Shown here piece after piece: positions 18,085 to 30,421 of a stretch of DNA of 31,897 nucleotides; positions within the stretch are counted from its first letter, which is position 1, and the number at the start of each line of letters is the position of its first letter. A model generated the notes under the pieces. That model saw nothing but the letters and a program-made list of their open reading frames with translations, was not told the DNA's origin and ran no database searches. The stretch is from IMG/VR virus record IMGVR_UViG_3300009009_000035, positions 1 through 31,897 of that record; one strand, 5' to 3'. The translations under genes and the position numbers were made by a program. This DNA comes from a virus.

Positions 18085-18392
18085 TACTGCACCTCTGTTC
18101 CTTCTGGAATTTCAAACTCTTCAGTGTTTAAGTTAAAGCTCCCCTTAAAGAAAGTAGCGATATCAGCTTTCTTAATTGCTCCGCTTATTTCTTCAGGAGT
18201 TATTCCAATATACACATACTCTTCGTCTTCGTCAAGTAAATAACCTTGAAGTGTAAGATTAAGTATCTTACCCCCAGCTGCACCCTTAACGGTCCTGAGA
18301 AGAAAAGCTAACTCATCCCCTGCAAATGTCGCAAACATTTTACTATAGGTCTTGGCTTGCTTTTTCTGCGGCCCTTTTCTTTTTAAGCTCAT
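18084..18392 (-). CDS. small protein between helicase and polymerase, unknown function
   Basis: Protein of 102 residues. I chose ATG at 18392 because GGAGGG lies 6 bases upstream; the frame is open to 18413. The N-terminus is basic (SLKRKGPQKKQAKTYSKMF). The remainder looks beta-rich (GKILNLTLQGYLLDEDEEYVYIGIT) and ends in an acidic tail. Its start lies inside the end of the primase-helicase gene, and its stop overlaps the polymerase GTG. That position suggests a replication accessory factor. I do not recognise the family. Confidence 0.6.
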   Translation of the reverse strand: MSLKRKGPQKKQAKTYSKMFATFAGDELAFLLRTVKGAAGGKILNLTLQGYLLDEDEEYVYIGITPEEISGAIKKADIATFFKGSFNLNTEEFEIPEGTEVQ

Positions 18393-20265
18393 ACAAATCC
18401 CTCCGTTCTTCATCTGTTAAAGTTCTAATACTACCAGTTAATCCATCCCAACTAAAATCATAACTACCTAACTGACCCATCCTATTCTTTACTACTAGGA
18501 TACTTAGGTACCTATCTTCTTCTGGATTCTTAGGACTGAACCCAGGTCTATTCATAGTAAAAATTACCGAGCAAGCCTGTTCAACCGCAGAAGATCCCTT
18601 GATGTTCCTCATGCTAGCTAGTTCATCTGAAGGATCTCCACCGTGCTTCTGTGTTTGTAACAATAATAATACGGTTAACTCAAGCTCATTGGCTAGATCT
18701 TTTAATTTCTGTGCTACTAGTGCAGTGTTCGCTGTAGGATCTGAGTAAGGACCAGCTACATTCTCTAAGTAATCTACGACCACTAGCTTCACCTTCTCAC
18801 CAGTACGTTCTTGTTCAGCAATAACCATGTCCTTCATATTCTCTACTGTAATACCAGATGAAAAACAGAAGCTAACATTAGCATACTCTTTAGAAACCAC
18901 TTGCTCAAACTGTGATATCTTAGGATCATTGCTCCTATACATCTCAAATAACTTCTTACTATATACGCCCGTGTGCTTCTGTATTAATCTTTGAAATACT
19001 AGTGGAGCCCCCATGTCTAGAGAGAAGAACACACTTCGTAGATTAGACTTAGATACAGTGTTAAGTACGCTCATAGATATGGAAGTCTTACCTGCAGACG
19101 GAGCAGCAAGTAGTCCTACTAACATTGAGGTAGTAATACGAACATCTCTGTCGATCTCATCAATACCTAACTTAATAGTGTTAGCTTCAATCTCTGTAGC
19201 AAACTTTCTAAATACATTACTAACATTAGTTACAGGAACTAAAGGTACTTCTTCCTTAGCTGGAACTTTAAGACCCAATCTCTTTGTAACCTCTTGTAGC
19301 AGTGGTGTATTATCGTATGAGTAAGTACCACCTTTCCAGTCTGGTTTACATACAACGTTAACAATATTGTTATATAGCTCATCATCTGGGAATCTATCCA
19401 CACCATTACGCTTAGCTTGTACTTCAGCTACACCTTTAAGCATACGGTAGATAATCTCTTTAGAGAATCCCTGACTCTTATATGTAGCAGCTAAGATCAT
19501 AAACGCAGTATTACGTACACCACTACCGAAGTACCCTTGTTGTAAAGCATACTTAGCATCTGATAACCACTTAGGTTTCTGTGTAAGATCAAGATCATGT
19601 ACCTCTACTTCAACTGTAGGTACTACCTTTTTCTCTGCGTTCTTAATAACTCTTTCAGGTAAAGAAGCTGGTGTCCAAGACTCCATTAGTTCTTCGTCTA
19701 CATTATTAATAGACTTAGCAAACTCCCTGATTAGATTAATGTCCATCTCTGTAAGTTGTGTTACAGATAGAGGCATCTTATATAGTTTACTCTTAGGATG
19801 TCTTGTGCCTACCACTCTAATAATTCTATTAGGATCTGATACAACCTTATCGAATGTCTTAAGATCCCCAGCTAAGGAGAATGTAATATCTTTAAACTGT
19901 TGCGGAGTAAACTCTTGAGTAGTATCTACTTGAACAGAGAATCCCTTACTCCCTGAGAAAGCCACTTGAATACTCTCTTCTGGTATATCATACGATGCTA
20001 ACCTAGTGATCACAGTGATCGCATCTTCACGAGCGTTCTCAGGATTAGTTGCATCGTCGAAGTCAAATAGTAATTTATTTGTAACAACATCTTTGATACC
20101 ACTTACTGTACCAGTCTCATTGAATCTTTGATAATGTTGTTCGTTGTATTTATATAGCGAGATATAATAATCGTTATCATTAGAAACGATATGGTCCCAA
20201 ACACTTTCAGTAGATGGGATAAGTTTATACTTAGTTAAACCTTGTGCAAGTCTTACGTATTCCAT
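18343..20265 (-). CDS. AEP-like primase fused to DnaB-type (SF4) helicase
   Basis: Protein of 640 residues. The N-terminal part (about 1-190) looks like an archaeo-eukaryotic-type primase: LLFDFDD gives the metal pair Asp68/Asp70, SGSKGFSVQV (104-113) matches the SGxKGxH motif but with Ser110 for His, and DPNRIIRVVGTRH (144-156) is the usual third block. A linker (about 190-350) follows. The helicase domain has Walker A APSAGKTS (388-395), Walker B LVVVDY (Asp498) and the DnaB-like LLLQTQKHGG and SSAVEQACSVIF blocks. T7 gp4 instead uses a zinc finger and Toprim domain, both absent here. It would unwind and prime at the fork for the polymerase encoded downstream. The SD GGAGGAGG is unusually strong and has a complement in the leader. 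Confidence 0.85.
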   Translation of the reverse strand: MEYVRLAQGLTKYKLIPSTESVWDHIVSNDNDYYISLYKYNEQHYQRFNETGTVSGIKDVVTNKLLFDFDDATNPENAREDAITVITRLASYDIPEESIQVAFSGSKGFSVQVDTTQEFTPQQFKDITFSLAGDLKTFDKVVSDPNRIIRVVGTRHPKSKLYKMPLSVTQLTEMDINLIREFAKSINNVDEELMESWTPASLPERVIKNAEKKVVPTVEVEVHDLDLTQKPKWLSDAKYALQQGYFGSGVRNTAFMILAATYKSQGFSKEIIYRMLKGVAEVQAKRNGVDRFPDDELYNNIVNVVCKPDWKGGTYSYDNTPLLQEVTKRLGLKVPAKEEVPLVPVTNVSNVFRKFATEIEANTIKLGIDEIDRDVRITTSMLVGLLAAPSAGKTSISMSVLNTVSKSNLRSVFFSLDMGAPLVFQRLIQKHTGVYSKKLFEMYRSNDPKISQFEQVVSKEYANVSFCFSSGITVENMKDMVIAEQERTGEKVKLVVVDYLENVAGPYSDPTANTALVAQKLKDLANELELTVLLLLQTQKHGGDPSDELASMRNIKGSSAVEQACSVIFTMNRPGFSPKNPEEDRYLSILVVKNRMGQLGSYDFSWDGLTGSIRTLTDEERRDLYELKKKRAAEKASQDL

Positions 20266-20268
20266 TTT

Positions 20269-20370
20269 CCTCCTCCAAAGAAAACGCCCCTTTTTAAGCT
20301 AGGGGCCACAGCTAATTATAGCAATGTCGGAGGAGGTCCATGCTATGAACTTTAATCAAGTTCCCCCGAC
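20269..20370 (-). promoter_or_regulatory. structured mRNA leader: pseudoknot and SD-sequestering switch
   Basis: Leader of the primase-helicase gene, read on the - strand. Stem 1 pairs GUCGGGGGA (20370-20362) with UCCUCCGAC (20334-20326): nine pairs with one G·U. Stem 2 pairs AUAGCA (20346-20341) with UGCUAU (20323-20318) and interleaves with stem 1, giving an H-type pseudoknot. Stem 3, an alternative, pairs CCUCCUCCGA (20336-20327) with UUGGAGGAGG (20278-20269), which is the SD itself. Stems 1 and 3 share bases and exclude each other. A nine-codon reading frame (20341-20312, MDLLRHCYN) also lies in the leader. Read as RNA from the + strand, stem 1 would have an A-C mismatch, which favours the - strand. 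No known riboswitch class was recognised. Confidence 0.55.
20286..20306 (-). terminator. GC-rich hairpin in primase-helicase leader
   Basis: GCCCCU (20306-20301) pairs with AGGGGC (20291-20286) around a 9-base loop, and the transcript continues GUUUUC. The short U-run makes it a weak intrinsic terminator or attenuator. It lies inside the loop closed by the SD-sequestering stem, so it could stabilise the off state instead of ending transcription. Confidence 0.4.
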
Positions 20371-20378
20371 TGGACATC

Positions 20379-20612
20379 TTAATCTTCTGTGATTAGATAT
20401 ACTTCTTGACGGATATACTCAGGGATCTTAGACAATCTTTCTTCACCCTTAGCTTCCTCAAGCTTACCTGCAGCCACTTGATCTTTGATCTTCTTACGAG
20501 GATCTTGGATCTGCAAAGCTGCGTCCTTAGTTAACTTGACATCTGATTCTACTTTCAGATATAAGCTACCTTTCTTACTCTTACGGATCGTTCCTACTTT
20601 TAACCAAGCCAT
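20379..20612 (-). CDS. small conserved phage protein, possible DNA-binding
   Basis: Protein of 77 residues beginning MAWLKVGTIRKSKKGSLYLK. The first half reads as beta strands and the second as a charged helix (AAGKLEEAKGEERLSKIPEYI). It ends in a beta strand with an acidic tail (VYLITED). I recall similar 'GTIR.SK.G..YLK.E' proteins next to phage replication genes. An OB-like single-strand-binding role fits the position and the acidic end but is a guess. The ATG overlaps the upstream stop and GGAGG lies 6 bases before it. Confidence 0.6.
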   Translation of the reverse strand: MAWLKVGTIRKSKKGSLYLKVESDVKLTKDAALQIQDPRKKIKDQVAAGKLEEAKGEERLSKIPEYIRQEVYLITED

Positions 20613-29976: not shown

Positions 29977-30223
29977 ATTGCCAGTCCTTTACAAAATACT
30001 TATGAAGTATTATACCAACCTCATCAGTTTCAAATGCCTCCTCTATTTCTAAGGGAGCGAAGTGTTCGCTTAGTACATACCTCAAAGTTTCTAGTATCAT
30101 ATCAATTGCTTCTGTTCTATGTAGCGTCATCGCCTTTGCATAGGCCGCTGCCATATCTCTATTTGATTTTAAATGTACATGATTATGTACAAGGAACTCT
30201 GCTATCTTATATTCAATTGTCAT
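29966..30223 (-). CDS. unknown small helical protein
   Basis: Protein of 85 residues with AAAGG upstream of its ATG. It is helical (KIAEFLVHNHVHLKSNRDMA; AIDMILETLRYVLSEHF) with an acidic segment near the end (EIEEAFETDEVG). It overlaps genes on both sides by about 11 bases. The function is not recognisable. Confidence 0.5.
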   Translation of the reverse strand: MTIEYKIAEFLVHNHVHLKSNRDMAAAYAKAMTLHRTEAIDMILETLRYVLSEHFAPLEIEEAFETDEVGIILHKYFVKDWQYEH

Positions 30224-30413
30224 ACATCCTTTCTCTAGTTAATCTGAAAGACGACTCTGAGTCTCTACCTTCGAGTAACTTATTTAAGAAGTACAGTATG
30301 GATTTAACATACCACACTGCGTTAAACCAAAGCAACAGTATAAATATTATATGCAACCTATCGTAGTAATAATAGTTTACTGCAAAGTATAATGGTATAA
30401 TATACCTAATCAC
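30213..30413 (-). CDS. small membrane protein, unknown function
   Basis: Protein of 66 residues. It starts VIRYIIPLYFAVNYYYYD, then has an apolar segment (HIIFILLLWFNAVWYVKSILYF) that would cross the membrane, and ends polar and charged. GTG at 30413 is listed because AGGAGG lies 4 bases upstream, within the end of the preceding microprotein; GTG at 30416 is too close to that SD. Its role is unknown. Confidence 0.5.
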   Translation of the reverse strand: MIRYIIPLYFAVNYYYYDRLHIIFILLLWFNAVWYVKSILYFLNKLLEGRDSESSFRLTRERMYDN

Positions 30414-30421
30414 CACACCTC

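Follow-up and report, generated by a model that had tools for sequence, protein, structure and literature searches.

A C-rich, anti-Shine-Dalgarno-like element linked to a small phage gene and its possible masking of the primase-helicase start

The primase-helicase gene of this phage is preceded by a leader of 113 bases, the largest gap in this part of the leftward gene cluster. The question is whether the leader controls translation of the gene and, if so, by what arrangement. In what follows, the window is the whole stretch of 31,897 nucleotides that was analysed, and the two genes and all features of the leader are on its minus strand. The gene itself (18343..20265) matches PF03796, the DnaB-type C-terminal domain, and has a primase-like N-terminus, so that its original naming was right; upstream of the leader lies p77 (20379..20612), a small conserved gene of 77 amino acids with homologues in relatives. 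A sequence-only reading had described the leader as a two-state pseudoknot under the control of a phage protein or a small molecule, comparable to a riboswitch or to the operator of T4 gene 32, and every element that it named was found where it had been placed. No near DNA relatives of the window were present in the phage collection, and an Rfam search of the window and the leader gave no match at the gathering threshold, the best leader score being that of RydC (15.4 bits against a cut-off of 48).

The central element of the leader is an anti-SD-like C-rich sequence, CCUCCUCCGAC (20326..20336), which is conserved in kind 3' of p77 across relatives. Its segment CCUCCUCCGA (20336-20327) pairs with the Shine-Dalgarno (SD) region of the helicase, UUGGAGGAGG (20269..20278, read from the sequence), in a helix of 10 bp with one G-U pair, as had been claimed. 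When the upstream leader was shuffled with its dinucleotides kept, 21 of 5000 versions reached the energy of this duplex, -18.8 kcal/mol, which ranks first among the 42 gene leaders of the window. A run of 10 pairs alone is not rare (567 of the 5000 shuffles, 11%). The C-rich element can also be placed in the loop of a hairpin, AUAGCA(UGGACCUCCUCCGACAU)UGCUAU (20318..20346; arms 20346-20341 and 20323-20318), and of the 125 SD-like sites in the window, the one that pairs best with this loop is that of the helicase. Folded as a whole, the 151-nt leader reaches -48.6 kcal/mol (z = -3.55 against shuffles).

This pairing is predicted to affect access to the SD. In the full-length leader with the anti-SD, opening the SD would cost 9.3-9.5 kcal/mol, compared with about 5.0 kcal/mol for an RNA that starts 3' of the anti-SD and 5.4 kcal/mol when the anti-SD region is covered; these energies come from models of nested structures, in which a pseudoknot is not representable. 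Thus, of the earlier proposal, the masking of the helicase SD is plausible in this phage on the predicted opening costs, while a pseudoknot or two-state switch dedicated to the helicase is unsupported. By prediction, the SD of another start in the window, at 30213-30416, is masked to the same degree (opening cost 9.54 kcal/mol).

Two features that the sequence-only reading did not mention are situated between the anti-SD and the SD. One is a hairpin, GCCCCU-AGCUUAAAA-AGGGGC, with a 9-nt loop, followed by the U-rich tail GUUUUCUUU (20277..20306); a GC-rich stem followed by such a tail is the form of an intrinsic terminator, and terminators occupy the equivalent position after p77 in many relatives. 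The other is a predicted promoter-like site of the extended -10 type, TGCTATAAT (20315..20323), which has no good -35 and is one of 4 such motifs in the window, where 2.3 are expected. A transcript from this site, with a predicted start at about 20308, would not contain the anti-SD. When the relatives were read by eye, promoter-like sites were seen after the p77 terminator in L121, L100 and L111, and none was evident between the anti-SD and the SD in L131, L113 and L114. In addition, a mini-ORF of 21 codons (MSSRGNLIKVHSMDLLRHCYN*, 20312..20377), likewise absent from that reading, opens 1 nt past the stop codon of p77 and runs through the anti-SD; re-initiation there is possible, and the mini-ORF was not seen in L131. 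Pairing of an antiterminator with the 5' arm of the terminator was also considered by eye and was inconsistent. The anatomy of the leader is that of an operon boundary.

The explanation that we favour, with a probability of roughly 0.4, is that the 113 bases form the boundary of two transcription units, at which an anti-SD in the 3'UTR of p77 masks the helicase SD on read-through RNA and leaves it unmasked on RNA from the internal start. The p77 operon would end in a 3'UTR and terminator that overlap the 5' leader of the primase-helicase, and in this phage the C-rich element of that 3'UTR is the complement of the helicase SD. Transcripts that continue from p77 past the terminator carry this SD-complementary element, and the helicase start on them would therefore be masked: CCUCCUCC would hold down translation of the helicase from the full-length leader, so that the helicase would probably be silent on read-through RNA in this phage. 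RNA started at the internal TGCTATAAT would lack the anti-SD and be translatable, and ribosomes traversing the mini-ORF could lift the mask. What the analysis establishes is the presence of the sequence elements, their statistics, and the conservation of the C-rich element together with p77; from these we infer that the promoter is active, that transcription terminates, that the SD is masked in vivo, and the timing.

The best fit for this proposed arrangement is the logic of T4 genes e, soc, 49 and I-TevI, whose SDs are masked on long early transcripts and free on RNA that starts shortly past the masking strand (PMC3014915). As in the gene e-type leaders, the SD on read-through RNA can, by prediction, pair with a stretch upstream of it, with the duplex and opening energies given above. 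Immediately 3' of the masking strand comes the candidate promoter without a good -35, a transcript from which would not include that strand. Unlike those leaders, this one has a sigma-70-like extended -10 where T4 has a late promoter, encloses a terminator hairpin in its masked structure and would act on a primase-helicase, and its transcripts are predicted from sequence.

To see the leader in its family, orthologues were collected by alignment-based scans, single-protein scans with the helicase or the polymerase having given none. About 40 helicase orthologues of 35-45% identity were recovered, and in nearly all of these relatives a p77 profile detected a homologue on the upstream side of the helicase. 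p77 matched no family in Pfam or PHROG and no fold in the PDB; its AlphaFold model has a pLDDT of 88, and its one viral fold match is an uncharacterised phage protein. Together with its homologues, p77 is an unnamed protein family.

The content of the gap between p77 and the helicase varies among the relatives and includes terminators, small frames or homing-endonuclease frames (HNH-like at L102:4799-4999 and L103:4088-4537), a tRNA gene (L106:4823-4894; Rfam tRNA, 61.8 bits) and a structured RNA. The last is a conserved branched RNA of about 110 nt (L092:4420-4531, L104:4420-4531, L094:4417-4530, L108:4744-4857 and L128:4752-4863), in which 10 of 26 pairs have changed on both sides. It has no Rfam match, its covariance model gave no convincing score in the other loci searched, and it is a candidate for a new structured RNA. 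Two relatives carry a large insertion in the helicase gene near residue 394 (L102:4986-7997 and L130:4740-7793), and the 1003-aa helicase frame of L102 resembles an intein in the P-loop (GVGK-C...HN-TS). In the window itself, a frame at 11753-12565 matches GIY-YIG/HNH homing endonuclease families (PHROG 314).

Against this varied background, the C-rich sequence is conserved with p77. On the coding strand of 38 loci, CCTCC occurs 18 times in the 3.1 kb directly 3' of p77, that is, 5.75 per kb; the remainder of these loci has 0.20 per kb and other intergenic stretches have 0.22 per kb. This 26-29-fold enrichment has a Poisson p of about 1e-19 against the background and of 6e-12 against the region's own composition, the loci being not fully independent, and the motif is found after p77 in 11 of 22 clusters formed at 60% helicase identity. 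Its density after p77 is 6.64 per kb where the helicase is adjacent and 4.78 per kb where it is not, and upstream of helicases without an adjacent p77 it is 0.83 per kb, from one locus. By these densities, it is p77, and not the helicase, that the element accompanies.

The element also has a characteristic setting. CCUCC often adjoins an intrinsic terminator or sits inside it, and is usually unpaired: its mean exposure in the family is 0.77, compared with 0.58 when the flanks are shuffled (p = 0.012). The window's own C-rich motif scores 0.36 under a nested model, which does not allow for the pseudoknot. Of the 16 terminators called near p77, 4 have C-rich loops, compared with 0 of 27 strong terminators elsewhere. 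A broader class of C-rich motifs (UCCC, CUCUCC and similar), defined post hoc, has lower weight. Hairpins with a CCUCC loop and otherwise different sequence follow p77 in L131, AGCGG(CCCUCCUCUUCCA)CCGCU; L114, CCUAAGAA(UUCUUCCUCC)UUCUUAGG; L132, AAAUAG(UUCCUCCG)CUAUUU; and L127, GGGGCUGGU(..UUCCUCC)ACCAGUCCC. As in intrinsic (Rho-independent) terminators in general, the stop codon is followed by a GC-rich hairpin and then a U-rich stretch; unlike in ordinary terminators, CCUCC lies in or next to the apical loop in several relatives, a feature not seen in the other strong terminators of these phages. The anti-SD-like 3'UTR element linked to p77 is a real pattern, and no description of it was found in the family libraries or the literature searched.

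The same comparison tells against a general role in masking the helicase. In eight relatives with a GGAGG-type or otherwise G-rich SD, the leader is predicted to add no more than about 1.7 kcal/mol to the opening cost of the SD, so that masking comparable to that in the window is not retained. The loops, taken alone, showed no preference for their own helicase SD over others (p = 0.10). A test with whole leaders gave p = 0.04, but two of its loci, L118 and L103, are artefactual because a terminator arm overlaps the SD window. Further points weigh against the boundary and masking model itself: any GGAGG-type SD is matched by a CCUCC run, the C-rich element is kept where the next gene is not the helicase, the internal promoter has no good -35, and one other start in the window is as costly to open.

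A possible alternative, in our view somewhat less probable than the boundary model, is that the p77 3'UTR element acts beyond the helicase, its exposed C-rich loop pairing with other SDs in trans or binding a protein, perhaps p77, with the pairing to the helicase SD as a by-product. The element tracks p77 with or without an adjacent helicase, shuffled flanks leave it less exposed than its own flanks do, and in L127 and L096 the loop is present with no GGAGG-type helicase SD. There is also a precedent in Staphylococcus aureus, where unpaired UCCC loops of regulatory RNAs such as RsaA and RNAIII are seeds against SDs (PMC3961350). By the family mean of exposure, the motif is open here too, and as in those RNAs the sequence is unpaired, often in a hairpin loop, and SD-complementary; unlike them, it lies in the 3'UTR of a phage gene beside a terminator, and a separate RNA or a target in trans would be hypothetical. 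However, a consistent target did not emerge: the loops had no preference for the SD of their own p77 over those of others (p = 0.51), no partner site within about 4 kb was consistently shared, and p77 has no recognised RNA-binding fold.

A simpler account, to which we assign a small probability, is that the leader holds an ordinary intrinsic terminator and an ordinary SD, and that the SD complement arose by chance, aided by C-rich sequence. In its favour, any CCUCC will match SDs, which are purine-rich; shuffles contain runs of 10 pairs at the frequency noted above; and no coevolution of loop and SD was seen in the family. Set against this are the strong enrichment of CCTCC after p77, its presence in half of the clusters, and the occurrence of C-rich loops in some terminators near p77 and in none of the strong ones elsewhere.

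The second pairing proposed for the anti-SD is present, excludes the SD pairing, and joins GUCGGGGGA (20362..20370) to 20334-20326 as the pseudoknot stem; with -16.2 kcal/mol (range -16.2 to -17.5), GUCGGGGGA is the second-best partner of the anti-SD, and the competing helix GUCGGGGGA:UCCUCCGAC was reached by 40 of 5000 shuffles. In this one sequence, both pairings are energetically good and mutually exclusive. Nevertheless, a pseudoknot switch of the helicase is unlikely, and we give very little credence to the model of a helicase leader with a dedicated controller: the relative closest by p77 (L131, 64% identity, same gene order) has a hairpin with the loop CCCUCCUCUUCC after p77 and no G-rich upstream partner like GUCGGGGGA, the pairings do not recur in relatives, several relatives with the same gene order (L096, L119, L127, L126 and L106) lack the SD complement, an outcome that the sequence-only reading had itself named as refuting it, and Rfam offers no match at threshold. 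The leaders of the relatives have no sequence that could be aligned for a covariance model of the window's leader. The gene 32 translational operator of T4 and RB69 is a pseudoknot, which in T4 nucleates binding by the protein that gene 32 encodes (PMC3014915, PMC535899); here too a pseudoknot can be drawn upstream of the start of a replication gene, but it is not conserved and has no known binding protein.

The reading that we prefer, a transcription-unit boundary with a masking 3'UTR, therefore corrects the first one, in that conservation points to the 3'UTR of the upstream gene and not to a helicase riboswitch. A broader generalisation is doubtful at present: that in a widespread group of phages a conserved anti-SD-mimicking loop after p77, in the replication-recombination module, regulates translation of phage or host mRNA in cis or in trans, with this helicase as one target. 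The element sits at the junction of recombination and replication genes. If it is functional, it would be a gene-linked anti-SD RNA kept across phages whose helicases are only 35-45% identical, an exposed sequence resembling the 16S tail that would set when the primase-helicase or other genes are translated.
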